Shown piece after piece: positions 11,419 through 23,956 of a stretch of DNA of 64,000 bases. The stretch spans positions 6,696,001-6,760,000 of the forward strand of contig NZ_CP033073.1 in NCBI RefSeq assembly GCF_003675325.1, written 5' to 3'. The DNA comes from Streptomyces dangxiongensis (GTDB taxonomy: Bacteria > Actinomycetota > Actinomycetes > Streptomycetales > Streptomycetaceae). The notes below the pieces were generated by a model. That model saw only the letters and a list, made by a program, of their open reading frames with translations, had not been told where the DNA came from and made no database searches. Both the position numbers and the translations under genes were made by a program. How positions within the stretch are numbered: the stretch's first letter is position 1; the number at the start of each line of letters is the position of its first letter.

Positions 11419-11684
11419 ATGTCCAGAACGGCCTACGTGCGCACCAAACCGCACCTGAACATCGGCACCATGGGTCACGTCGACCACGGCAAGACCACCC
11501 TGACCGCCGCCATCACCAAGGTCCTCGCCGAGCGCGGCACCGGCACCTTCGTGCCGTTCGACCGCATCGACCGCGCGCCCGAGGAGGCCGCCCGCGGCAT
11601 CGCCATCAACCTCACGCACGTCGAGTACGAGACCGACACCCGGCACTACGCCCATGTCGACATGCCCGGGCACGCCGACTACGT
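11419..11684 (+). pseudogene. tuf3: EF-Tu (tuf3-type), 5' part, interrupted by integrated element
   Basis: Codons 1-89 of an elongation factor Tu paralogue: the P-loop '[15 protein letters not shown]', the switch I region (shortened and divergent, '[18 protein letters not shown]') and the G3 motif 'DMPGHADYV'. The gene is cut after the Asp-Tyr-Val codons by a site-specific integration. Read-through would add about 53 element-encoded residues and stop at 11847. The remaining 300 codons are at 23,049-23,956. Divergence from canonical EF-Tu suggests the second, stress-related Streptomyces EF-Tu rather than the housekeeping one. Confidence 0.88.
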
Positions 11685-11703
11685 GGTTTGCGCACCCTGT
11701 CAT
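11672..11703. other. attL of the integrated element
   Basis: The left junction. EF-Tu sequence GCCGACTACGT runs to 11684 and then element sequence GGTTTGCGCACCCTGTCAT begins. TACGT (11680-11684) is the 5-base stretch common to attL, attR and the rebuilt attB. ACGTGGTTTGCGCACCCTGTCAT (23 bases: from 11681 to 11703) is the exact reverse complement of 23026-23048 at the other end. Confidence 0.88.
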
Positions 11704-11734
11704 ATTGGTAGCTCGGTAGCAGAGGGGCGGGACC

Positions 11735-13225
11735 GTGGACGAGATCGACTTGTATCTACGTCGAAGCAAGATCACACGGGAAGGCGTGGAGGCTCTGACC
11801 TTCACGACACAGGAGGAACGCGGGCGAGCGTGGGCAGACCAGCATAATTACCGAGTACGCAAGGTGTGGAAGGACAACCTCAGCGCATGGACGGACGTCA
11901 AGCGTCCCGATTTCACGAAGGCACTGGGAGCGCTCAGGCGTAAAGAAGTGCCCGCACTGTGGTGTTACGCGGTGGACCGGTTCGACCGCCAGGGGGCCGG
12001 CTCTGTCATTCAGCTACTCGACGCGGGCGCCCGGATCATCTTCGACTACGAGCGGCTCGACAGCGCAGTCCCACGTGACCGAGAGCGCATCATCAACGAC
12101 GCCGAACGCGCCAAGACCGTGTCAGATCTCCTGTCGCACCGTGTGCGCGACACGAAGCAGGGACAGCGACGGCGGGGTGAGTGGTTGGGAGCCGCCCCAT
12201 TTGGGCTGAGCAAGGACAAGAAAGGGAAGCTGCACCATGGCGCGCACTGGGACACAGTCCTCCGCGTCATCACGGACGTTGCCGACGGGTACGCGCCCCG
12301 CGTCGTCGCCCGGCGGCTGACGAGTGACCGCAAAGCCTCCCCGAAGGGCGGACCCTGGAACGCGTCGACGGTCCGGCGCATTGTCTACAACCCTGTGTAC
12401 GAGGGATGGCAAGTCGTTGCGCTGTCCCGCAAGCACACGTGGCCCGTGGCGTATCGCAACGAGGCTGGAGAGCGGGTCCGTGTGTTTGCTGACGGTGTCG
12501 ACCCGGTCCCTGCGGATCTCGTCGCGAAGGCAAGGCGAGTGCACGCCGGCCACCAGCGCGGAGCACTAGGACCGCGCGTCGGCAAGGCGACGCATCTCCT
12601 GACGGACCTACTCCGGTGCGCTGGCTGTGGGGCGAAGATGCCGACGAGCGGGCGCTCCTACGTCTGCAACGGTCACGCCATGGGCAAGCCGTGCCCGGCG
12701 CCTGCGTCGGCCATGCGCGCTCGCGTCGAGGAGTACGTCTACCGGGCGTGGGTCGGGGCCGTCAGCGCTGCCGACGTAGACGCAGGCGACCCGCTGATGA
12801 TCGCTGTTGCGGAGCGGTGGGCGGCTCTCGTAGCTCCAGAGGAGACAGAGGAAGCGCAGGAAGCGCTAGGCGCCGTCAAGGCTGCGGAGGCGGCCGTCGA
12901 GCGACTCGCCAACGACCGTGCGAAGGGGCTGTATGACGGCGCCATGGGCAAGTACTTCCCCCGCCTCGTCGCGGAGGCAGAGGAGACACTGAAGGAAGCA
13001 CAGGCACGCGCTAACGGGCTAACTGGCGGGAACGTCGACCTGACGATGTTCGATGACGCCGAACTCCTCGAAGAGGCGTGGGAGGCGGCCGACTTGCCTA
13101 TGCGCCGTGACCTCCTCCGCGTCGCTATCGAGAAGATCACCGTGACGCAGGCGGCGCGACGGGGCGCCCCGTTCGACGGTGACGCCCGATGCATCATCGA
13201 GTGGGCCACACCCGCGGAAGAGTAG
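11735..13225 (+). CDS. int: Large serine recombinase (integrase)
   Basis: The 496-residue protein has the three parts of phage serine integrases. The resolvase-like catalytic domain (about 1-150) has the nucleophile Ser11 in 'DLYLRRSKI' and '[10 protein letters not shown]'. The recombinase domain (about 160-260) includes '[11 protein letters not shown]' and '[14 protein letters not shown]'. A zinc ribbon follows with '[11 protein letters not shown]' and 'SYVCNG', then a coiled coil (about 375-440) of the kind that governs directionality. GTG 11735 has AGAGGGGCGGG upstream. It lies next to attL, pointing inward, and ends in a terminator hairpin. It almost certainly made the insertion in tuf3. 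No excisionase-like recombination directionality factor is recognisable. Confidence 0.95.
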
Positions 13226-13239
13226 CCGCACACAAAGGA

Positions 13240-13264
13240 GCCCCCGTCGTGTACCGACGGGGGC
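13240..13264. terminator. Terminator of the integrase gene
   Basis: GCCCCCGTCG and CGACGGGGGC are separated by TGTAC, with AAGG/CCTT extending the stem and CTTCGT following. It starts 15 bases after the integrase stop. Confidence 0.88.
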
Positions 13265-13393
13265 CTTCGTCATTCCGTGGGCGGCGCGCTCCACGGTCCG
13301 GCCGGCGGACGCTCTGGGAGTTCGTCTGTTCGGTGCAGGAAGTAATCCATCCATGCGCGCACGGACCACCTGTCGACCCTGTGCCACTATCGA

Positions 13394-13407
13394 GGTGGTT
13401 AACCACC
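13394..13407. promoter_or_regulatory. Perfect 14-bp palindrome, candidate operator
   Basis: GGTGGTTAACCACC lies 84 bases upstream of the start of the next gene, in its presumed promoter. The symmetry and position suggest a dimeric repressor site; the XRE protein of the same element is one candidate binder. Confidence 0.45.
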
Positions 13408-13423
13408 CCCCGACGCAACTGGC

Positions 13424-13469
13424 GTGGGAGGCTCGCCCAAATGTCTTTGGCGGACGACGAGCCTCCCAC
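13424..13469 (+). promoter_or_regulatory. Stem-loop in the leader of the 13,491 gene
   Basis: GTGGGAGGCTCG and CGAGCCTCCCAC form a perfect 12-bp stem around 22 bases, which themselves can pair CCAAA with TTTGG. It ends just before the ribosome binding site AAGAGGAGAAG, so it may terminate upstream transcription or control translation of the following gene. Confidence 0.55.
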
Positions 13470-13490
13470 CTCTCCAAGAGGAGAAGCACA

Positions 13491-13907
13491 ATGCTCGCAC
13501 ACCGTCCAACCCTCGTCGTCGGAAATACCACCACCCCCGACAGCTACGCCGACGTCCGTGCCTTCGCCTGTGACGTGGCTGACCGCCTTCGCCTCCCCGC
13601 CGTCGTCGCCGTCGGCCGTGACCATGACCTGACACAGTACGAAGGCGTCGTCCTGGCCGACGGCTGGGAGACGTCCTTCGAGTCGGCCGCACTGGGGTGC
13701 GAGGCGCTGTGCGAGGACATGTGCGTCATGCTGGCGAGCGACGTCTACGAGCACCCGATCACCATCCGCTGCGGACACTGCGGCGACGTCGACCCGGAGG
13801 CGGCCCCGGTGTGGCTCGACGGACGTTGGACGACGTCGGTCTGCCCCTCCTGCGTCGAGGCGCACGCCTGCGGGGGTCTCGTCGGCGTCCTCCCCGTCGC
13901 CGTCTGA
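13491..13907 (+). CDS. Hypothetical prophage protein with cysteine pairs
   Basis: The 138-residue protein starts at ATG 13491, chosen because AAGAGGAGAAG ends four bases before it. The N-terminal part is a mixed alpha/beta segment ('ADVRAFACDVADRLRL'). The C-terminal half has a treble-clef-like arrangement, 'IRCGHCGDVDPEAAP' and 'VCPSCVEAHACGG', likely to bind zinc. No family is recognised. It is flanked by hairpins and is monocistronic. Confidence 0.7.
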   Translation: MLAHRPTLVVGNTTTPDSYADVRAFACDVADRLRLPAVVAVGRDHDLTQYEGVVLADGWETSFESAALGCEALCEDMCVMLASDVYEHPITIRCGHCGDVDPEAAPVWLDGRWTTSVCPSCVEAHACGGLVGVLPVAV

Positions 13908-13936
13908 CGCCTCCGACAGTCAGTCACTCCTCGTAA

Positions 13937-13976
13937 CGAAAGCCCGTCTCTGGCTCTAGCCGGCGACGGGCTTTCG
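13937..13976. terminator. Terminator hairpin
   Basis: CGAAAGCCCGTC and GACGGGCTTTCG form a 12-bp perfect stem with a 16-base loop, 29 bases after the 13,491 gene. Confidence 0.88.
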
Positions 13977-14566
13977 TGCGTCGGAGGGGGAAGATCGACC
14001 AGCAACCGGAGAGTGCCATTCCGGGAAGGTAAGCACCAAGAGGGTGTGTGCTCCTTACATCGACCGGCCTCCACCCTCGTCCGGTGTCAAAGTTGGCCAG
14101 ACTTGGGTCAAACCGTGATCCTGCTCGTTCGCCGCAAAGTAGCAGGTCAACTGGCCATTACTACTTCTTCTTAGGTCAGATTGGTCAAATTAGAGGTATG
14201 TTCCAGGTTCCCCTTAACACGTCTTAGGGGCTCTTGAGAACACCGTTCAGTTTGACACTTTGGACACCAGTCCGCCCCGGAGGACGCCGAGCCGGCCCCG
14301 ACGGAGGCTGACGAGGCGGAGGATGCCCGAGAGGGCCCCTGTGCGACCTTCTAAGCGCCTACAGGTGCGGCAGGCGGTAGAGTGCCAACCGGGCCCCGTT
14401 CGCGTCTTAAAGCCATACGGGGCCGTCCCAGCCATTGTTACACAGGGTGTTGGCGTCTTGGAAGATCTTCGATCCCGGACCAAACATCCGGCTCCATTTC
14501 CCCCATTACGTGTGTAGTAAGGCGCACACCTCGCGTGTGGCGCCGCCTACGACGGAGGGGAAAGCC
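13977..14566. other. AT-richer non-coding region of the element
   Basis: About 590 bases without a supportable gene. From 14,080 to 14,275 the sequence is the least G+C-rich in the window and contains five GGTCAAA-like motifs (separate entry). From about 14,330 onward short frames exist but lack third-position bias and ribosome binding sites. A GGCCCCGT/ACGGGGCC stem occurs near 14,393-14,426. It may be a phage control region or a deletion scar. Confidence 0.5.
14085..14189. repeat. Five GGTCAAA-like direct repeats
   Basis: TGTCAAA (14085), GGTCAAA (14106), GGTCAAC (14145), GGTCAGA (14174) and GGTCAAA (14183) all lie on the plus strand within 105 bases of AT-richer DNA. Clusters of short direct repeats of this kind are common in phage operators and replication origins, but which applies here cannot be told. 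Confidence 0.45.
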
Positions 14567-15151
14567 ATGTACGAGGACGAGTACGGGACTTCGGCACGCC
14601 GGCGCACTCGATACACGGGGGAGCTGGAGGAGCTTCGCTATCTCGGGATGGAGCTGGAGGAATGCGGGGCGTACGTCTCGCCGACGCGGACGCACTGGCT
14701 TGGATTTTCGGGCAGTGATCCGCTCGACGTCGAGACGGACGAGGAGTTCAACGAGCGCCTGTGGCATACCTGGCATGACGCCGGGGAGGTCGACGAGGAG
14801 CGCCCGATCCGACGCCGGCCGTCGGGCCGCACGGTAGACATAGTGCCGCCGGTCACGTCCGCAGTGACGGTCCGCGTAGACCCGGAGATAGCAGCCGCCT
14901 ATGCGGCCCGCCAGGCGGAGGCAGTGCTCACGCTCACGTACGAATCCGCGGGGGGCGTCGTGACGGTGGAGGGTCCAGAGAAGACCTGGCGGGGCTCTTG
15001 CGCTCAGTGCTCGAAGCCCTTCGAGCAGCGTCGCCCTGCCTCGCAGCGTCGACGTTGGCGGACCCTCTGTGGCGACGTGTGCTCTGCGGAATGGGCACGG
15101 GCCCGACTGCGGGACCGTATGCGACGACTGAGGGGCTCCGACGGCGCGTGA
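14567..15151 (+). CDS. Hypothetical prophage protein with C-terminal zinc-finger-like motif
   Basis: A 194-residue, strongly charged protein. ATG 14567 follows GGAGGGG by seven bases; an upstream in-frame ATG at 14435 is in non-coding-like sequence. The N-terminal half is acidic ('YTGELEELRYLGMELEECG'). The C-terminal ~45 residues have 'GSCAQCSKPFEQRRPA' followed by 'TLCGDVCSAEWARARLRDR', a Cys-x2-Cys / Cys-x3-Cys finger followed by a basic helix, resembling small phage DNA-binding or packaging-associated proteins. Function unknown. Confidence 0.7.
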   Translation: MYEDEYGTSARRRTRYTGELEELRYLGMELEECGAYVSPTRTHWLGFSGSDPLDVETDEEFNERLWHTWHDAGEVDEERPIRRRPSGRTVDIVPPVTSAVTVRVDPEIAAAYAARQAEAVLTLTYESAGGVVTVEGPEKTWRGSCAQCSKPFEQRRPASQRRRWRTLCGDVCSAEWARARLRDRMRRLRGSDGA

Positions 15152-15175
15152 TGTGTGCGCCTTTGTATTAACTAT

Positions 15176-15211
15176 GGAGAGGGGCGTATCCGCGACGAGT
15201 CGCCCCTCTCC
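15176..15211. terminator. Terminator hairpin
   Basis: GGAGAGGGGCG and CGCCCCTCTCC form an 11-bp stem with a 14-base loop, 24 bases after the preceding gene. Confidence 0.82.
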
Positions 15212-15424
15212 TACTGCCCTTCGTGGAGACTCCGGCACCGCAATGGCCGTTGAAGCCTCCCGAACCGCGTGCCGTTGCCCTCTCCTCCGGCGGCACGCTT
15301 GAAGGCTCCCCGCCCGGCTCCGCAAGGGGCGCGTAGAGCACCGGCTCCCCCTCTGTGGGCCGTTGATGTTCCGCGTTCGCTACTCCCGGGCGGGGAGCCA
15401 TTTTTCTGCTCAGAAATCGACCTA
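15212..15424. other. Structured non-coding stretch before the IS630 element
   Basis: No gene is supportable. GGCTCCCCGCCCGG at 15304-15317 is the exact reverse complement of CCGGGCGGGGAGCC at 15386-15399, which would form a long-range 14-bp stem. The frame of the tape-measure gene is open leftward from the IS through this stretch, but no start codon with a ribosome binding site is apparent. Confidence 0.5.
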
Positions 15425-15447
15425 CTGACCTTCAATGCGTGATGTCG

Positions 15448-16158
15448 TCATGGTGGCTGGCGCCGGAGGCCGGTGCCGGTGAGGCAGCCGTCCAGGACGT
15501 CGGGGCGGTACTGGAGCTGGCGGAGGCCGCGTCGGACGGCGGTGATCAGGTCGTCGGGGTCGGCGAAGGCGCGGTTGGCTGTGGTGGTGCGTCGCAGGAC
15601 AGACCAGATGCCTTCGACCGGGTTGAGGTCGGGTGAGTAGGGCGGCAGTTGGAAGACGGTGAGCCAGTCGCGGTCGGCGATGTAGCGGCGCATGCCGGCG
15701 GTGAGGTGGGTGTTGAGGTTGTCCCAGACCAGCACGATGGGGCCGCCGAGCTGTTGGTGGGCGGTCTGGATCAGGTCGCGGTAGTCCTTCCAGGAGAAGC
15801 TTTTGCGCCCGTCGGGCCGGGCGTCCGGGCAGGGCCGGTAGATCAGTCGTGAGGGTTCGCCGGTTTTGTAGCAGGCCAGGGCGGCCACCGATAAGCGGCG
15901 GCGGGAGCGGCCCCGCACGCGGATCACGGGGGTGTGGCCGCGGCGGGACCAGGTGCGGGTGGTCGGCGGCGTCATCGAGAAGCCGGCTTCGTCCTCGAAG
16001 ACGAGCCAGGCGTCGAGCGCCGCCACGGTCCTTCCACGCTCGGCCAGGTCTCCTTCACCCAGCCGGCCACCGCGGTCTCGTCCCGCTCGATCGCCCGCCG
16101 GGCGGGGACCTGGCAGCTCCAGCCGTGCCGCTTGAGCAGGGCGGCCACCCCCTGCCAC
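15448..16158 (-). CDS. IS630 transposase, downstream frame (catalytic domain)
   Basis: The frame encodes the DDE catalytic half: 'VFEDEAGFSM' with the first aspartate/glutamate region, 'IVLVWDNLNTH' with the second aspartate, and 'LPPYSPDLNPVEGIWS' with the final acidic residue. The homologous part begins around 'RTVAALDAWL' near 16,030; residues before that are out-of-frame translation. It is expressed only by a -1 shift from the upstream frame, or not at all. No A-rich slippery heptamer is visible at the overlap (GTGGAAGGACCGTGG on the minus strand), so this may be an inactivating mutation instead of programmed frameshifting. Confidence 0.8.
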   Translation of the reverse strand: MAGGGRPAQAARLELPGPRPAGDRAGRDRGGRLGEGDLAERGRTVAALDAWLVFEDEAGFSMTPPTTRTWSRRGHTPVIRVRGRSRRRLSVAALACYKTGEPSRLIYRPCPDARPDGRKSFSWKDYRDLIQTAHQQLGGPIVLVWDNLNTHLTAGMRRYIADRDWLTVFQLPPYSPDLNPVEGIWSVLRRTTTANRAFADPDDLITAVRRGLRQLQYRPDVLDGCLTGTGLRRQPP

Positions 16159-16511
16159 GTGTAGCTCTTGTGGAAGCGGCGCCCGATCAGCGTCCTAATC
16201 CGCGACAGGGTCCAGGTCTGGTCCGGCCAGCCGTGTGCCACCGGCCCTTTGGCCAGTTCCCTCTCCAGCACGGCGAACAGTTCGTCGCTGAGCAGCGGCA
16301 GCGATGCCGGGCCCCTCGAGGTCAGGGCTCTCGGACCGTCCTGCGACCAGGCCCTGCGCCACCGCTGTACCGACCGGACGCTGACCCGCAGGTCGTGAGC
16401 GATGATCGGGTTCTCGTCGCCCTGCCGGAACCGCTCGGCCGCCTCCATCCTCAACTTCTCGCGGAAGAACCGCCGTTCGTCGGTCAGTCCGCCCCCTTGT
16501 GCATACCTCAT
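15972..16511 (-). CDS. IS630 transposase, upstream frame (helix-turn-helix domain)
   Basis: The first ~150 residues of the 179-residue frame are the DNA-binding half: 'MEAAERFRQGDENPIIAH' and 'RVSVRSVQRWRRAWSQDG', a helix-turn-helix, then a second winged-helix 'WTLSRIRTLIGRRFHKSY'. The frame leaves homology after 'KETWPSVE' near 16,035, where the other frame continues with the catalytic domain. ATG 16511 is 64 bases from the right inverted repeat. Confidence 0.8.
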   Translation of the reverse strand: MRYAQGGGLTDERRFFREKLRMEAAERFRQGDENPIIAHDLRVSVRSVQRWRRAWSQDGPRALTSRGPASLPLLSDELFAVLERELAKGPVAHGWPDQTWTLSRIRTLIGRRFHKSYTWQGVAALLKRHGWSCQVPARRAIERDETAVAGWVKETWPSVEGPWRRSTPGSSSRTKPASR

Positions 16512-16586
16512 GCAGTCGGCATACCGCAGGGATCATGAGACGTCAGCCCTGACGACACCACGCTTTGAAGGTCAGTAACCATCCGA

Positions 16587-19500
16587 GTGAAGGCGGATAC
16601 GGCCGGCGCGCTGTCCGCGCTGAGGTCGCTCGGTGGCGCAATCGGTGCCGTCGCAGCCCTGCCGCTCGTCCCGATCGCAGCCGCCGGCATCGGCGCTATC
16701 GCATCGGCGGCCGTAACTGCCGGCGCAGGAGTCGGGGCCCTGGCCCTCGTGGCCATTCCGGCCATCAAGGGCGTCACGAGCGTCATTCAGGCGAAGACAG
16801 CAGCGGAGAAGGAAGCCGCTTCCTCGACGGACAACAGCGCTGCCGCCAACGTCCGCGCCGCACAGAACGCCCTTCAGATGGCCGGTGCACAACAGGCACT
16901 CACGGCCGCCCATCGCAACGCCGCGCAGTCCATCGCTCAGGCCAACCGACAGGTGGAGGACGCTGAGCGTGCCGTCGCGCAAGCCGCGCAGCGTGCCGCT
17001 GATCAGCGGGTGCAGTCCGCGCAGAACGTCGAGCGGGCAGAGCGCTCCCTCGCCGACGCCAAGCGTCAGTCGACTGACGCTGAAGAGGCCCTCACCCGGG
17101 CTCGGAAGGACGCTGCCGACCAACTCGCCGCCCTCGACGACAAGCTCGCGGACGGCAAGCTCAACCAGCGTGACTCCGTCCTCAGGGTCGCGGAGGCGCA
17201 GGACGAATTGAACCGCGTCCTGGCCGACCCGAAAGCCACCGATCTCCAGCGCGAGCGTGCGCAGCTTGCCTACGACCAGGCCCTCCAGGCTCAGAAGGAG
17301 CAGGACAAGTCTTACCGTCAGACGCAGGAGGAGGCCCGGAAGGCGAAGAAGGAGGGCGTCAACGGTAACGAGCAGGTCAAAAAGGCCACTCAGGATGTCG
17401 CCGACGCTCAGCGCAACGTCCGTGACCAGGTCGAGGCTCTGGCGCAGGCTCACAGTGACGCCGCGAAGGCGGAGGTTCAGGCCGCGCAGCAGGTGGCTGA
17501 CGCACAGCGCTCCCTAACCGACGCCGTCAAGAACGCTGCTACCACTCAGGTAACGGCTGCGGAGTCCATCGAGTCCGCGGAGCGCGGCGTCGAGTCGGCT
17601 CGCCTGTCGAGCATCGACACCACGACGACCGCCACCACGAAGGCGGACACGTACCGCGAGGCACTGGCGAAGCTGACGCCTGAACAACGGGATCTCTACG
17701 ATTCCCTCGCCGGCCCGAAGGGGCTGACGAAGGCGTTCAAGGACTGGTCGACGTCGCTTCAGCCGGACGTCCTGCCGCTATTCACGCGAGGCGTGAACTC
17801 GGCGAAGAACTCACTGCCCGCGTTCACGCCACTGGTAAGGAATTCCGCGTCTGCCGTCAAAGAATTGATGGACCGGGCGTCGAAGCAACTGAAGACGCCT
17901 TTCTGGCAAGGCTTCAAAAAGGATATCCAGGACAACGCGAAGCCGGCGATTGTCGGTCTGGGTGTCGCATTCGGTAACGTCCTAAAGGGCATGGCGGGCA
18001 TTGTCGACGCCTTCCTGCCGCACATGGATGGTATATCGAGCCGAATGCAGAAGGACACCGAACGGTTCGCCGATTGGGGGACGAAGCTCAAGGGCAGTCC
18101 CGCCTTCGAGAAGTTCTTGTCCTACGCCGGGAAGCATGGCCCAATTGTCGCCCAAACCGTGAGCGACATAGCCAGCGCTGTGCTGTCAATAGGATCGGCC
18201 CTCTCGCCGATATCCGGCCCCCTGCTGAAAGTTATCAGCGGAGTCGCGGTCGGAATAGCTTCTGTGGCTGACACCCTGCCGTGGCTGATTCGGCTCATCT
18301 ACGGCGTATGGGTTGCTACCCGACTGTGGACGATTGCCGTAGCAGCATTCAACCTCGTCATGGCAGCGAACCCGATTGTCCTGGTAATCGTAGGACTCGT
18401 TGCCCTCGCAGCAGCGGTAATCTACGCGTACAAGCATTTCGGGTGGTTCCGCGACGTCGTAGACGCCACCTGGCATGGCATTGCGACGGCCGCGGAGTGG
18501 GCCTGGCGGAGCGCTCTACAGCCTGTCTTCGCCCTGATCTGGGGCGCAATCCAGAGCGTCGGGGGCGCGGCTGTATGGCTCTGGAGAAACGTTTTTGCCC
18601 CTGCCTGGACCGGCATGGTGACGGTGGCGAAGTACGCCGCAGCGATCATCGTCACTCTCGTCGTCGCTCCGATCATCGTCGCAGTTCACGCACTTGGATT
18701 GCTGTTCGGCTGGCTCTGGACGGACTGCGCTGAGCCGACGTGGAACGCTATAGCGGGGCTGGCACTGTGGCTCTGGAACAAGGCACTGTACCCCGCCCTG
18801 TCGGCCATAAAGGGCGAAGTCGTGGGCGTCGGTGACGCGTTCCTTTGGCTCTACAATCACGCCGTAAAGCCTTCCGCAGATTGGATCTCTGACAAGGCCG
18901 ATTGGCTCTGGAACAAGGCACTGGCTCCGACGTTCAAGTCCATCCGCGGCGGGCTGAGTTCAGTCGGTGGCGCATTCCACGGACTCTACAACGACTACGT
19001 GGAGCCGGTGGTAAGCGATGTGGCGAACGCCGGAGATTGGCTGTACTACAAAGGCCTGAAGCCGGCATTCGACGGCATCAAGTCCGCAGTCGGCCTCGTG
19101 GCGGACGCCTTCGATGGTGCGCGGAAGGCGATCAAGTCGGCGTGGGATAAGGTCGCCGGCATTGTGGCGAAGCCTGTCAATTTCGTCATTGACTTCGTGT
19201 ACACCCATGGAATCAAGGCGGTGTGGGACAAGGTCGCTGGATTCGTCGGACTGGACAAACTCCCGAAAGCCCCGAAGCTTCTGCCTGAGAACCCTAAGCT
19301 CCTCGAAGCCGGCGGAACGATCGGCGAAGGATGGGGCATTGCTCGTCCGATGAAGACGAATCGTCCGACGGCAATCGTCGGCGAGGGAGACCCGCGTTAC
19401 CCCGAATACGTCATCCCGACGGATCCGAAATACCGGGGCCGCGCGAAGGCGCTTCACGCCTCCGCAGGGACTCAGCTCCTTGAATCCGGTGGCGTTATCG

Positions 19501-20726
19501 GCGGAGCGTGGGACTGGACGAAGGACGTGTTCAGCACCGTCGGCGACTGGGCGAAGACGACCGGCGACCTGATGATCCACCCGGGCAAGGTCTGGGACCG
19601 ACTCATCAGGCCGACGATGGATCACGTCAAGGACGGCGTCGGCGACGGCCCCATGGGCAAGGTCATCACCGGCATCCCGAAGCGGATGGTCGGCGGGCTG
19701 AAAGACATGCTGGTCAACGCTGTCACGAACATGTTCAGCGGCGGAGGCGGAGTCGGCCAGTGGGTCAAGCCCATCAACGTCCCCTACGGGACCAGGTTCG
19801 GCGTCCCCGGTCGCATGTGGTCCTCCGGCCACCACACGGGCCTAGACTTCCCGGCACCCGTTGGAACTCAGGTCCACGCGGTCGACGGTGGCACGATCGT
19901 TGGCGTCGGTACTGCCGGCCCGTACGGCAACCACCTGGAGATTGACCACGGTGGGAAGCTCGTCTCCCTGTACGCCCACATGTCCGAGATCCTCGCGGGT
20001 CTGGGTCAGGTGGTGGGCCAGGGCGACGTCGTCGGCCTGTCGGGCGCGACCGGCAACGTCACCGGCCCTCACCTCCACCTGGAGGCGCGGGTGGGAGGAC
20101 GAGCCGTCGATCCCATGCCGTACCTGGAAAGCATCCGCACCGGGGGCAAGGTCTCCCAGTCCATCGCGGCAGCGAAGAACTTCGCCAAGTCCCAGTTGCA
20201 CTACTTCGGCTGGGGCCCCGGCGAATGGCCGTCGCTGGACCGTCTCTGGACGGGCGAGTCCGGATGGAGGTGGAACGCTGAGAACCCCAGCTCCGGTGCC
20301 TTCGGTATTCCGCAGGCTCTGCCCGGCTCAAAGATGGCGTCGGCCGGTCCGGACTGGCGGACGAACCCAGCGACACAGATCCAGTGGGGCATGGGTTACA
20401 TCAAGAATCGGGCCGACTACGGATCTCCGTCCGCGGCCTACGGGAGATGGCTGAACCGTCATCCCCACTGGTACGACGACGGCGGGTACCTCCCGCCCGG
20501 TCTCTCCCTCGTCGCCAACGGAACTGGCAGCCCAGAACCTGTGTTCACGTCGACGCAGTGGGATGACATCAGGGCTGCCCGCGGAGCCGGCCGACCCGTG
20601 ACCATCAACGTGGAGTCGACCACGGTCCTTGACGGCCAGGAACTGAGCGGCATGGTCGACAAGCGCATTGAGTTCTACGACGGCGAGGTTGCTACCAGCC
20701 TGAACAACGGGCGCATCGTCATCTGA
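16587..20726 (+). CDS. Phage tape-measure protein with M23 peptidase and lysozyme-like domains
   Basis: This 1,379-residue protein is a siphophage tape measure. Residues ~10-65 are hydrophobic; ~75-340 are a long coiled coil; ~545-625 contain membrane-like helices including 'ANPIVLVIVGLVALAAAVI', diagnostic of such proteins; ~625-900 contain tryptophan-rich repeats of the 'WLWNKALxP' type. At ~1070-1180 is an M23 metallopeptidase with zinc ligands in 'HHTGLDF' (His ~1082) and 'PHLHLE' (~1162). At ~1195-1300 is a lysozyme/transglycosylase-like domain with the glutamate of 'GESGW'. These set tail length and open peptidoglycan during DNA entry. The IS630 copy sits at its 5' end, so GTG 16587 is only the first available start; the native start is lost or unrecognised. 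Confidence 0.92.
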   Translation: MKADTAGALSALRSLGGAIGAVAALPLVPIAAAGIGAIASAAVTAGAGVGALALVAIPAIKGVTSVIQAKTAAEKEAASSTDNSAAANVRAAQNALQMAGAQQALTAAHRNAAQSIAQANRQVEDAERAVAQAAQRAADQRVQSAQNVERAERSLADAKRQSTDAEEALTRARKDAADQLAALDDKLADGKLNQRDSVLRVAEAQDELNRVLADPKATDLQRERAQLAYDQALQAQKEQDKSYRQTQEEARKAKKEGVNGNEQVKKATQDVADAQRNVRDQVEALAQAHSDAAKAEVQAAQQVADAQRSLTDAVKNAATTQVTAAESIESAERGVESARLSSIDTTTTATTKADTYREALAKLTPEQRDLYDSLAGPKGLTKAFKDWSTSLQPDVLPLFTRGVNSAKNSLPAFTPLVRNSASAVKELMDRASKQLKTPFWQGFKKDIQDNAKPAIVGLGVAFGNVLKGMAGIVDAFLPHMDGISSRMQKDTERFADWGTKLKGSPAFEKFLSYAGKHGPIVAQTVSDIASAVLSIGSALSPISGPLLKVISGVAVGIASVADTLPWLIRLIYGVWVATRLWTIAVAAFNLVMAANPIVLVIVGLVALAAAVIYAYKHFGWFRDVVDATWHGIATAAEWAWRSALQPVFALIWGAIQSVGGAAVWLWRNVFAPAWTGMVTVAKYAAAIIVTLVVAPIIVAVHALGLLFGWLWTDCAEPTWNAIAGLALWLWNKALYPALSAIKGEVVGVGDAFLWLYNHAVKPSADWISDKADWLWNKALAPTFKSIRGGLSSVGGAFHGLYNDYVEPVVSDVANAGDWLYYKGLKPAFDGIKSAVGLVADAFDGARKAIKSAWDKVAGIVAKPVNFVIDFVYTHGIKAVWDKVAGFVGLDKLPKAPKLLPENPKLLEAGGTIGEGWGIARPMKTNRPTAIVGEGDPRYPEYVIPTDPKYRGRAKALHASAGTQLLESGGVIGGAWDWTKDVFSTVGDWAKTTGDLMIHPGKVWDRLIRPTMDHVKDGVGDGPMGKVITGIPKRMVGGLKDMLVNAVTNMFSGGGGVGQWVKPINVPYGTRFGVPGRMWSSGHHTGLDFPAPVGTQVHAVDGGTIVGVGTAGPYGNHLEIDHGGKLVSLYAHMSEILAGLGQVVGQGDVVGLSGATGNVTGPHLHLEARVGGRAVDPMPYLESIRTGGKVSQSIAAAKNFAKSQLHYFGWGPGEWPSLDRLWTGESGWRWNAENPSSGAFGIPQALPGSKMASAGPDWRTNPATQIQWGMGYIKNRADYGSPSAAYGRWLNRHPHWYDDGGYLPPGLSLVANGTGSPEPVFTSTQWDDIRAARGAGRPVTINVESTTVLDGQELSGMVDKRIEFYDGEVATSLNNGRIVI

Positions 20727-20735
20727 CACACACCC

Positions 20736-20767
20736 GGCCGCCCTCTCCGACAGGGACGAGGGCGGCC
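20736..20767. terminator. Terminator hairpin after the tape-measure gene
   Basis: GGCCGCCCTC and GAGGGCGGCC form a 10-bp perfect stem, starting 10 bases after the stop codon. Confidence 0.82.
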
Positions 20768-20784
20768 CGCACACCAACATCCCC

Positions 20785-20817
20785 CGCCCCGCGGATCCCG
20801 ACATGGGCCGCGGGGCG
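20785..20817. terminator. Second hairpin before the small zinc-finger gene
   Basis: CGCCCCGCGG and CCGCGGGGCG form a 10-bp perfect stem with a 13-base loop. It follows the first hairpin at once and ends 25 bases before the next start codon. Confidence 0.7.
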
Positions 20818-20842
20818 TTCCCATTACCTCAGGAGGAGCACG

Positions 20843-21001
20843 ATGGACTACACCAAGGGCGCCAAGGGCCAGGCCGTCCAGTGCCTGCACTGCGGCACTG
20901 AAATCCCGCAGGTTCCTGGCGTCGGACGTGTGCGCCGCTACTGCCGGCCGTCGCACGGCCTGGCCTGGCGGACGCGCATGCGTAGCGCCGGGTGGCTCTA
21001 G
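20843..21001 (+). CDS. 52-residue zinc-finger-like protein
   Basis: ATG 20843 is preceded by AGGAGGAG, an excellent ribosome binding site. The product has a Cys-x2-Cys pair in 'QCLHCGTEIP' and a later 'RRYCRPSHG', enough for one zinc site, followed by a basic tail. Small proteins of this kind are common in Streptomyces phages and plasmids. The stop overlaps the convergent XRE gene by four bases. Confidence 0.7.
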   Translation: MDYTKGAKGQAVQCLHCGTEIPQVPGVGRVRRYCRPSHGLAWRTRMRSAGWL

Positions 21002-21765
21002 GCCGACGAGACGGGACGCCCTTCCTCCCACAGTGCCGCTACGTGGCTGGCAAACCGGTCGTAGAGGCCGTTCTCTCCCAGCCGGCGCAGATGGAGCATT
21101 GGTGACTCGTGCCCCAGCAAACTGGAGAGGTGAGGCGTCACGAGCATTTCGTCATCGAAGGTGAACACAGACAGAGCAATGTGTCCGTCAGAGTAACGGG
21201 CCTCCACACCCCTGCCCTCGATCTTGCTCAGAGCGTCGAGTGTGATTCGGATACGCGTGCTGACGGTGAGCGGGACGCCTTCGATCTCTTCCCGACGCCG
21301 TGTGATCTCCGAATCAGGGTCACCCACGAGGAATCGAACGACGCAGCCGGATGCGGCCTTGGCCGCTAGCCGATCCGCTAGTCGCGGATGCTCCTGCCAA
21401 ACGAAGTAGTTCGTGTACCCCGCAAAGGTGATGGACGTTGACGCACCGTCGATCAGACGAGCCCACACCGACGTAGAGCATGCGTTGCGGTACGGGTAGG
21501 CTGCGATGATCTCCCGGTCTGGCCCCGTCTTCAGGGTGCTACGGATCGACTTAGGCCACAGCACGGCTGCACTCACTCCCAACGCCCTCGCGACGTCCTC
21601 CCGCGTGCGCGGATGCGGCGCACGGTTCGGATCCGCCACCCATCGTTCGACCGTCTTACTGGTCACTCCGACTGTACGGGCGAGGCGACTGCGCGAAATC
21701 TGCGCCTCGTCCATAGCGCGCTGTAGGTCCGTGTTCAAGGCATCCCCCGAGGACGTTTGGGCCAC
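20998..21765 (-). CDS. XRE-family regulator with PLD-like C-terminal domain
   Basis: The 255-residue protein begins with a helix-turn-helix, 'QISRSRLARTVGVTSKTVER' with 'ALGVSAAVLWPKS'. The rest resembles the phospholipase-D-like sensory domain seen in many actinomycete XRE proteins (annotated, from memory, as DUF5919): 'ASTSITFAGYTNYFVWQEHP', 'VRFLVGDPDSEITRRREE' and 'HIALSVFTFDDEMLVTPHLS'. No HKD catalytic motif is evident, so a binding role is likelier than catalysis. GTG 21765 is the proposed start. It is divergent from the three-gene operon that follows and may repress it. Confidence 0.8.
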   Translation of the reverse strand: MAQTSSGDALNTDLQRAMDEAQISRSRLARTVGVTSKTVERWVADPNRAPHPRTREDVARALGVSAAVLWPKSIRSTLKTGPDREIIAAYPYRNACSTSVWARLIDGASTSITFAGYTNYFVWQEHPRLADRLAAKAASGCVVRFLVGDPDSEITRRREEIEGVPLTVSTRIRITLDALSKIEGRGVEARYSDGHIALSVFTFDDEMLVTPHLSSLLGHESPMLHLRRLGENGLYDRFASHVAALWEEGRPVSSA

Positions 21766-21826
21766 TTAGGACGATAGCGCGCAGGCGGCCCGGGTGTCCG
21801 TGAGTTGGTGGTTCAAACGTCTCGTG

Positions 21827-21851
21827 TGACGGATGACCATCTGTGTCGTCA
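21827..21851. promoter_or_regulatory. Weak inverted repeat in the divergent XRE/operon promoter
   Basis: TGACG and CGTCA flank 15 bases, with GATGAC partly echoed on both sides. It is centred about 40 bases before the operon start. The match is short, so this is only a candidate operator. Confidence 0.25.
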
Positions 21852-21879
21852 TCACGCCAACGCATAGAGGTGACGAGGG

Positions 21880-22071
21880 ATGGCGTTACGGATGTTGGAT
21901 CTGGTCACGTACCAGCCTCCCCGGCCCAAGCCGGGTTGCAAGGTATGCGACACCTTCATGCAGAAGATCAAGCGAGCCGATGATCCTCACGGTTCGGGGT
22001 ACGACCCGTCGAGGGCAACTGATCTCCGTGTCGAGATGGCCAGGCACCGGGAGCAGGAGAACCGGTCATGA
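21880..22071 (+). CDS. 63-residue hypothetical protein (operon gene 1)
   Basis: ATG 21880 follows GAGGTGACGAGGG. The product has one Cys-x2-Cys pair in 'PGCKVCDTFMQKIKRA' and a basic, polar C-terminus. No family recognised. Its stop overlaps the next start in ATGA (22068-22071), so translation is coupled. Similar tiny cysteine-containing genes often accompany XRE regulators in Streptomyces. Confidence 0.65.
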   Translation: MALRMLDLVTYQPPRPKPGCKVCDTFMQKIKRADDPHGSGYDPSRATDLRVEMARHREQENRS

Positions 22072-22484
22072 CGGAACGCCGGCCGTACCCGGAGATCTCG
22101 TCGGAGGAAGAACTCGACGAACTCCCGTATCTCGCCTACCTGGAGATCGCCGGTCACCTGCGTCAGATAGCCCTCGAAGAGGACGACGACCCCGTGGCCG
22201 TGGCCCGGCAGCTCTTGGAGCGCGCGCCGGCAAACAACCGGTTCCGCATCGTCACGATCCAGCGGTTCAGCCTGCGCCCTGGTCCCCCGGTACCGGAGCC
22301 GTTCGTAGGACCGCAGTGCCGCGCCATGGACGCGCTGGAGAGCGGCGTCGTGCGCTGCGAGCTGGAGGCGCACAGCGACGGCTTGGACCACGCCGGCAGG
22401 GTCCTGCGCGACGGCAGGGCGGCTGAGGTGCACTACTGGCGCGCAACGTCCGGGGCGGAGGTGCGTCATGAGCGCGCTACGTGA
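22068..22484 (+). CDS. 138-residue hypothetical protein (operon gene 2)
   Basis: An acidic N-terminus 'SSEEELDELPYLAYLEIAGHL' is followed by 'DPVAVARQLLERAPANNRF' and a C-terminal half with 'CRAMDALESGVVRCELEAH' and 'HYWRA'. The pattern of a cysteine, then 'C.LE.HSD..DHAG' resembles the short C-terminal motif of the next gene ('VTCDSEPHSC'), suggesting the two share a small domain. Function unknown. Overlaps both neighbours in the operon. Confidence 0.65.
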   Translation: MTERRPYPEISSEEELDELPYLAYLEIAGHLRQIALEEDDDPVAVARQLLERAPANNRFRIVTIQRFSLRPGPPVPEPFVGPQCRAMDALESGVVRCELEAHSDGLDHAGRVLRDGRAAEVHYWRATSGAEVRHERAT

Positions 22485-22695
22485 GATCTGCGGCGCCACC
22501 TGGACGTACCCCAGCGATCCGACGGTGCTTCGTCGACAGGGATTTACGGAGACATTCGCCGGCGTCGAAGTCACCTGCGATTCGGAGCCGCACTCCTGCA
22601 ACCCGCACGACGTCGTGCACTCCGCGCCGATCTTCGTCGGGGAGAAGTTGCGCGGCATCAAGTACTGGGGACCTGGCTACGTGCCTGTGTTCTAG
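22468..22695 (+). CDS. 75-residue hypothetical protein (operon gene 3)
   Basis: The ATG at 22468 overlaps the end of gene 2 by 17 bases in another frame and has GGCGGAGG just upstream. It contains 'GVEVTCDSEPHSCNPHDVVH' and ends 'KYWGPGYVPVF'. A cysteine-histidine cluster and the recurring 'YW' motif are the only features. It is the last gene before attR. Confidence 0.6.
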   Translation: MSALREICGATWTYPSDPTVLRRQGFTETFAGVEVTCDSEPHSCNPHDVVHSAPIFVGEKLRGIKYWGPGYVPVF

Positions 22696-22812
22696 CCCCC
22701 TAGACCCGCGTGCTGGGCGCCCGTGCGTCCGGCCCGCGGAGGGCGCGACGGGGGTGGTTGGGTTGAGGCTCGATGTGAGGTCGGCCCCTCCCCAGCCCCC
22801 GTCAGCGTCCTA

Positions 22813-22858
22813 AGCCTCACCCATGGGTTTGCCCGCCTGCCGGCCCATGGGTGAGGCT
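22813..22858. terminator. 15-bp perfect hairpin
   Basis: AGCCTCACCCATGGG and CCCATGGGTGAGGCT pair perfectly around 16 bases. It would end the three-gene operon in either direction. Confidence 0.78.
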
Positions 22859-22951
22859 CTGAACCCTCGTCCCCCTGTTACAGCCCTTTCTTGGGGGACG
22901 AGACTGCCACCCTCGGCCGGACGTCTCGCCAGACGTCCGGGGTGGCGGACG

Positions 22952-22991
22952 GCCCCGCTCACCGACGCCCCCCGTCGAAGGTGAGCGGGGC
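22952..22991 (+). terminator. Terminator hairpin at the element's right edge
   Basis: GCCCCGCTCAC and GTGAGCGGGGC form an 11-bp stem followed by TTTCTT. It would stop element transcription before the EF-Tu 3' fragment. Confidence 0.85.
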
Positions 22992-23025
22992 TTTCTTGCG
23001 TGCTCCTACCTGCGACGATAAAGTC

Positions 23026-23062
23026 ATGACAGGGTGCGCAAACCACGTACGTCAAGAACATG
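23026..23062. other. attR of the integrated element
   Basis: The right junction. The palindrome arm ATGACAGGGTGCGCAAACCACGT (23026-23048, 23 bases) meets EF-Tu sequence TACGTCAAGAACATG at the shared TACGT (23048-23052). The rebuilt attP would be perfectly symmetrical over 46 bp, centred on TA; its middle reads CAAACCACGTACGTGGTTTG. Confidence 0.88.
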
Positions 23063-23956
23063 GTCACCGGCGCCGCGCAGCTCGACGGGGCGATCCTCGT
23101 CGTCTCGGCGCTCGACGGGATCATGCCGCAGACCACCGAACACGTGCTGCTCGCCCGGCAAGTGGGCGTCGACCACATCGTCGTCGCGCTCAACAAGGCC
23201 GACGCGGGGGACGCGGAGCTGACCGACCTGGTCGAGCTGGAGGTCCGCGACCTGCTGACCGCCCAGGGGTACCCGGGCGACGCCGTCCCCGTCGTCCGCG
23301 TCTCCGGACTGCGCGCGCTGGAGGGTGACCCGCGCTGGACGGCGTCCGTCGAGGCACTGCTCGACGCGGTGGACACCTATGTGCCGACGCCGGAACGGTA
23401 TCTGGACGCGCCGTTCCTGCTGCCCGTCGAGAACGTGCTGACCATCACCGGGCGGGGGACCGTCGTGACCGGTGCCGTCGAACGGGGCGTGGTGCGGGTC
23501 GGTGACCGCGTCGACGTGCTCGGCGCGGACGTCCGGACGGTCGTGACCGGGCTGGAGACCTTCGGCAGGCCGATGACCGGCGCGCAGGCCGGGGACAGCG
23601 TCGCGTTGCTGCTGCGGGGCGTTCCCCGGGACGCCGTCCGCCGGGGGTACGTGGTGACGGCGCCGGGAAGCGTGGTGCCGGCGCGGCGGTTCTCGGCGCG
23701 GGTGTACGTGCTGCAGGGGAGCGCAGGGGGCCGTACGACCCCGGTCACCACCGGCTACCGGCCGCAGTTCTACATCCGTACGGCGGACGTGGTGGGGCGC
23801 GTCGACCTGGGCGGGGCGGGTGTCGCCCGGCCCGGGGAGACGGTGGAGATGGGCGTGGAGCTGGGACGGGAGGTGCCGTTGGAGCCGGGGCTCGGGTTCG
23901 CCGTCCGCGAGGGCGGACGGACCGTGGGCGCGGGGACCGTCATCGCCGTGGGATGA
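23049..23956 (+). pseudogene. tuf3: EF-Tu (tuf3-type), 3' part
   Basis: Continues the frame interrupted at 11,684, from '[20 protein letters not shown]' through the guanine-specificity motif 'ALNKAD', domain 2 ('[19 protein letters not shown]') and domain 3 ('[13 protein letters not shown]'). Joined to the 5' part it would encode about 390 residues, normal for EF-Tu. In the present state the first usable start is ATG 23060 without a ribosome binding site, and the product would lack the P-loop, so it cannot act as a GTPase. Confidence 0.88.

Follow-up and report, generated by a model that had tools for sequence, protein, structure and literature searches.

Serine integrases and the polarity of insertion

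In serine integrases, two asymmetric letters of the site are held to set orientation, and laboratory mutants with symmetric letters lose polarity. The core is the asymmetric dinucleotide GG in A118, GG is also predicted for phiJoe (excerpt of PMC5311408), and excerpts of a further study give the asymmetric cores TT (one multi-targeting integrase) and AA (Cp36; PMC10083194). In contrast, the core is TA in the element described here, which spans positions 11680-23049 of a 64,000-nucleotide stretch of Streptomyces dangxiongensis DNA (NZ_CP033073.1, positions 6,696,001 to 6,760,000; hereafter the window), and insertions face both ways. The element interrupts a gene for the elongation factor EF-Tu, which we take to be tuf3, the other copy presumably being tuf1. 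It is very probably a site-specific mobile element that brings its own serine integrase and enters one TA of tuf3 either way via a symmetric core.

Several features of the locus resemble known systems. According to the available part of the phiJoe report, an inverted-repeat attP of ~45-50 bp lies next to the integrase gene (PMC5311408), as it does here. In attB of the LI integrase the outer motif stands 5 bp closer to the centre than it does in attP (excerpt of PMC3783163), compared with 4 bp in the present system. Furthermore, the integrase (int) has the same domain order as the large serine integrases of A118, phiJoe, phiC31, Bxb1 and others.

Symmetric-core att sites of Bxb1 and phiC31 were reportedly engineered by Ghosh in 2003 and Smith in 2004. 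The engineered symmetric cores G1C and G2C of A118 recombine in both alignments, like the reading proposed here, with deletion:inversion ratios of 64.5:35.5 and 52.5:47.5, one mutant name being printed for both ratios in the excerpt available (PMC3556126). Synapsis and cleavage are said, in part of another paper, to be equally efficient in parallel and antiparallel alignment (PMC3783163). Those symmetric cores were laboratory-made, whereas the tuf3 elements are natural and occur in both orientations in genomes. Polarity loss by a symmetric core is already known from mutants, and the tuf3 elements look like its natural case. None of the open-access PMC matches listed (titles, abstract starts and passages) describes a natural palindromic-core serine integrase or a tuf3 element; in the excerpts concerned, 'both orientations' means cloning direction in the SV1 paper (PMC4068962) and refers to an insertion sequence in PMC5001619.

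Ends of the element, integrase and target gene

The features at the two junctions are as follows (window coordinates).

11419..11684, plus strand: 5' part of tuf3, ending with the shared TACGT (11680-11684); joined to 23053-23956 it forms an open 389-aa EF-Tu frame
11680..11681, no strand: putative crossover dinucleotide TA at the int-side junction (attP symmetry centre; AA, AA and TC at the same position in three sister systems)
11682..11703, plus strand: attP arm adjoining int, CGTGGTTTGCGCACCCTGTCAT; exact inverted copy of 23026-23047, with similar arms in relatives
11735..13225, plus strand: int, large serine integrase, 496 aa (Pfam Resolvase 2.3e-10, Recombinase 1.9e-09, Zn_ribbon_recom 1.6e-05; PHROG 95 integrase 3.4e-49)
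23026..23047, plus strand: attP arm at the far end, ATGACAGGGTGCGCAAACCACG; exact inverted copy of 11682-11703
23048..23049, no strand: putative crossover dinucleotide TA at the far junction (attP symmetry, relatives' junctions, sister-system cores)
23048..23956, plus strand: 3' part of tuf3, starting with the shared TACGT (restored EF-Tu frame, TIGR00485 match)

The left junction reads GCCGAC-TA(11680-11681)-CGTGGTTTGCGCACCCTGTCAT(11682-11703) and the right junction ATGACAGGGTGCGCAAACCACG(23026-23047)-TA(23048-23049)-CGTCAAG. An earlier sequence-only reading had set the bounds at 11672-23062; the element lies inside these, and a few host bases had been included on each side. The same reading had described a 46-bp perfect palindrome centred on TA at the joined ends, which is confirmed by reading both junctions: the element ends are exact inverted copies, and the joined attP has 23 consecutive pairs including the central T-A, with the five positions beyond these unpaired. 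Chance can be set aside as its source, because among 1,000,000 pairs of 22-mers drawn at random from the element the best paired at 17 of 22 positions, and 28 reached at least 16. Assembly error was likewise rejected; the arms are 11 kb apart and the layout is repeated in the assemblies of five relatives. Contiguous perfect palindromes found in the window reach 20 bp at most, and the attP palindrome is non-contiguous while the element is integrated.

Removing the element and keeping one copy of TACGT restores the open 389-aa frame, which passes the EF-Tu equivalog cut-off (TIGR00485: 547.5 bits vs 522.4). The joined tuf3 site was used as a probe in 29 relatives, 18 of them in the same genus. 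Of these 18 genomes, 12 carry an uninterrupted site (at least 88% identity), two (G000, the window's own genome, and G005) have a match split precisely at the common TACGT, and four show no more than a weaker match of 83-84%.

The gene adjoining the left attP arm is int. Its three Pfam domains score above their cut-offs, as befits a large serine integrase, and Ser-11, presumably the catalytic serine, is invariant in all nine aligned integrases. The inverted-repeat attP (~45-50 bp) next to int and the host site sharing a short core with it are further marks of the class; the asymmetric polarity-fixing core, which is usual in large serine integrases and does not define them, is absent here. The family scans revealed no gene for a directionality factor.

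Orientation among the related elements

Relatives were sought in a genome set holding one genome per species, and the counts of repeated, overlapping genome draws were not summed. Integrase matches at E 1e-40 were present in 36 of 392 genus genomes, four of which had integrases at least 74% identical (the window's own, G364, G005 and G046). A scan of named genomes added S. hilarionis, CB01580, NRRL B-1140, ISL-66 and Tue 6430; ISL-66 (G395) and G046 were counted as one element because their junction sequence is identical. In all, seven related elements were found in other Streptomyces, with integrases 73-90% identical to that of the window and inserted at the same TA of tuf3. Elsewhere, the family draw that gave the sister systems G715 and G533 held no further integrase of the tuf3 clade at E 1e-140, and plasmid records gave no integrase match at E 1e-60. 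The IMG/VR scan with the single integrase gave no relative, while that with an integrase alignment gave three at 42-50% identity; a scan for the far end of one of these (L067) found none. The closest phage integrase is 38% identical. For G154, G413 and G175, the ~20 kb examined in each case showed no far end.

The sequences present a TA-centred site, insertion at the same TA in eight genomes, and both orientations. All eight distinct elements lie in tuf3 at this TA, as read from the sequence upstream of int. Six are forward, with int after the 5' half of tuf3 (the window, S. hilarionis, NRRL B-1140, G005, ISL-66 and Tue 6430), and two are inverted, with int after the reverse complement of the 3' half (G364 and S. 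sp. CB01580, which is G393). Both junctions were read in six of the eight (four forward and both inverted), and TA stands at the int-side junction in 8/8 and at both junctions in 6/6. In G364 and CB01580 the two tuf3 halves follow gene order on the minus strand and int is read from the plus strand, so it is the element that is turned and not the gene. For the other two forward elements no far end was found, and both appear as decayed elements: in ISL-66 (L034/L039) tuf3 resumes at residue 124, and in Tue 6430 (L035) the integrase is frameshifted.

In an integrase tree of 11 sequences, which omits the frameshifted Tue 6430 integrase, the seven tuf3 integrases form one clade (100/99). Inverted G364 is sister to the forward window integrase (100/98) and inverted G393 to forward G005 (96/96). 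Both inverted elements thus have a forward element as sister, and orientation changed at least twice, the changes being counted by hand on the tree.

These observations can be explained if the integrase cuts both attP and attB at TA. As TA is its own reverse complement, the exchanged ends would pair as well in one alignment of attP with attB as in the other, and the circle could thus enter the single site in both orientations. Loss of polarity would then stem from the symmetric core, and the inverted copies would date from entry and not from a later flip of the integrated element.

The strongest competitor to such either-way entry holds that entry is effectively polar and that the inverted copies were turned after integration, the integrase acting on antiparallel attL x attR across the core. 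TA cores and near-identical arms would then yield exactly the junctions observed, and the two routes are indistinguishable on present data. Nevertheless, in-place inversion still needs the symmetric core, and with such a core entry should lose its polarity as well. In the excerpts available, moreover, the antiparallel domain arrangement of attL x attR differs from the productive parallel one (PMC3783163), and attL x attR recombination mostly needs a directionality factor in serine integrases (PMC4111918). We regard this route as improbable.

Position of the crossover

Three sister integrases (54-59% identical) come from G177 and G715, of the same genus, and G533, of the same family. Their cores are AA, AA and TC, respectively, with the same dinucleotide at both ends and an ACCC motif 12 nt further out on each arm. 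The tuf3 clade keeps this 12-nt spacing and has TA in that place; its core is symmetric, whereas those of the sisters are asymmetric. The crossover is placed at TA because the AA, AA and TC cores occupy the same position. G177 and G715 have a common target and the same facing, and the attB sequences of all three sisters differ from the tuf3 site.

The host side agrees with this placement. A profile of the outer motif built from 12 attP half-sites found its best match at position 8, not 12, on both arms of three attB sites, and since the motif is shifted 4 bp inward evenly on both arms, attB would also be centred on TA. The left arm of attB matches well (1.8 to 6.0, with 0.2% of background reaching 1.8). 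Two junctions limit the switch region further: G005 has TACAT in the host against TACGT in attP, which narrows it to TAC, and in inverted CB01580 the junction bases leave GTA.

Against this background, a crossover off centre, at AC or GT within TACGT, with normal polarity and with the inverted copies as rare errors, appears very unlikely. The stretch TACGT common to attP and attB in the window does include AC and GT, but the switch region is only TAC in G005 and only GTA in CB01580, the sister cores lie exactly at the TA position, the outer motif is even around TA in attB, and two separate inversions are found among eight elements. For these reasons the offset crossover was set aside. The sequence-only reading had offered it as one of three alternatives, beside polarity set in some other way and insertion in both orientations; the last is borne out by the two inverted elements, and the offset crossover is disfavoured.

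Several points count against entry either way at TA. The inverted elements are only two of eight, and two of the six forward elements have one junction read. The polarity of sister insertion rests on two insertions only. On the right arm of attB the match is weak: scores in five sites run from -5.6 to -9.9, with 3.2% of background reaching -5.6. The three scanned attB sites, being homologous, do not count as independent. Finally, ACGTACGT contains both AC and GT, so that an off-centre cut in attP is formally allowed.

The weakest alternative, an IS630/mariner-like transposon with terminal inverted repeats and TA duplication moved by the internal DDE_3 transposase, can draw on the 22-bp inverted ends flanked by TA and on the DDE_3 gene inside the window's element, but is scarcely credible given that this gene lies within its own unrelated inverted ends and TA pair (15425-16575), that 8/8 elements sit at one tuf3 TA beside a serine integrase gene rather than at many TA sites, and that the sister integrases keep the arm geometry with AA or TC replacing TA.

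Core symmetry and arm symmetry

The arms of the window's attP pair at 22 of 22 positions, compared with 16 in G392, 19 in G394, 18 in G005, 19 in G364 and 17 in G393. Sister arms around asymmetric cores pair at 18 (G177), 16 (G715) and 20 (G533) of 22 positions. The int-side arm common to G392 and G364 is one base off that of the window. Because relatives and sisters pair at 16-20 of 22, the perfect arms of the window look like the extreme of an ordinary imperfect palindrome. It is the palindromic core, not the perfection of the arms, that predicts polarity loss. The sequence-only reading had treated perfect arm symmetry as special, a view that does not hold when five relatives with TA cores pair at 16-19 and the sister with a TC core at 20. 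It had also named homologues with an asymmetric attP as evidence against itself; such homologues exist where perfect arms are concerned, and none was found for the symmetric core.

Choice between the EF-Tu genes

A separate full-length EF-Tu match, 60-61% identical, is present in all six relatives' genomes searched. The six main EF-Tu copies (L046-L051) have TA at the same codon as the tuf3 site. Their left arms score -12.9 for the outer motif, against 1.8 to 6.0 in five tuf3 sites, while the right-arm scores overlap (-6.2 to -9.7 against -5.6 to -9.9). The left-arm difference maps to a tuf3 Met codon that is Cys in the other EF-Tu copy. Absence of the left-arm outer motif from the main EF-Tu copies is a possible reason why the integrase targets the spare gene alone.

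Promoter layout at the far end

Two features precede the far attP arm in the window.

22951..22991, plus strand: strong G+C-rich hairpin followed by TTTCTT, terminator-like (predicted fold; not called by the consensus scan)
22996..23024, plus strand: promoter-like TTGCGT-N17-TAAAGT, directed outward from the right end (relaxed motif, in the same place in 6/6 right ends)

A hairpin with a T-rich tail was seen by eye at five of the six right ends, CB01580 being the exception. The relaxed motif (TTG-N3, a spacer of 16-17, TANNNT) ends 25-26 nt before the end of TA and points outward in all six; its frequency in the elements is 0.005-0.010 per 70 bases per strand, the end match included. The order on the circle would be terminator, promoter, attP and int, with int perhaps read from the far-end promoter through attP, although this is a weaker part of the proposal. 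Such an order means that integration would part int from the promoter. The idea that integration thereby switches int off is suggestive only, because a strict scan of the window's end for sigma-70 promoters and terminators found none, which counts against it.

A broader scenario is that the tuf3 clade gave up polarity, moving to a palindromic TA core and inserting either way, and that the element also flips in place (attL x attR), so that its outward promoter would face the 3' part of tuf3 in one state and run antisense across the 5' part in the other, and int would or would not be downstream of tuf3 transcription. This is conceivable but doubtful.

Cargo of the elements

The remaining features of the window's element are listed below.

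15425..16575, minus strand: nested insertion sequence, presumably of the IS630 family, a passenger (DDE_3 transposase open reading frame 15448-16158, 1.9e-24; own inverted ends; bounds read by eye)
16587..20726, plus strand: tape-measure-like protein, 1379 aa (PHROG 4197 tape measure 4.3e-128; 54% identity to the tape measure protein of phage Samy)
20998..21765, minus strand: helix-turn-helix regulator, repressor-like, 255 aa (weak helix-turn-helix, repressor and DUF5919 matches; a homologue in the G393 element is 73% identical)

The six elements with both ends are 11.4-15.8 kb long, compared with 61 kb for Streptomyces phage Samy (OR263580), which they resemble in the tape measure and the head protein. 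A Samy-like tape measure is encoded in all six (44-54% identical, best segment) and a Samy-like major head protein, 56% identical, in two; the loci are window 16587-20726, L033:15020-16048 and the elements of G364, G005, G392, G393 and G394. The Samy record has 104 features, of which 26 proteins were tested, and the other 24 had no match in the elements at E 1e-3. Size and a partial set of structural genes are as in phage satellites, although reduced prophages would look alike. The elements look like phage satellites or much reduced prophages, and look to bring their own length- and size-setting proteins.

The window's tape measure matches residues 251-1566 of the Samy protein, and since the match begins at residue 251, ~250 N-terminal residues appear to be missing. 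The nested insertion sequence has the ends CTGACCTTCAA and TTGAAGGTCAG, both flanked by TA, and adjoins the truncated start of the tape-measure gene.

Implications

The attP/attB pair, with a sister system as polar control, makes either-way entry directly testable in a plasmid assay. If the proposal is true, the tuf3 clade together with its AA and TC sisters would form a natural series on the joint change of core and target. Polarity would then be something that a mobile element can do without when its target gene is a spare copy.

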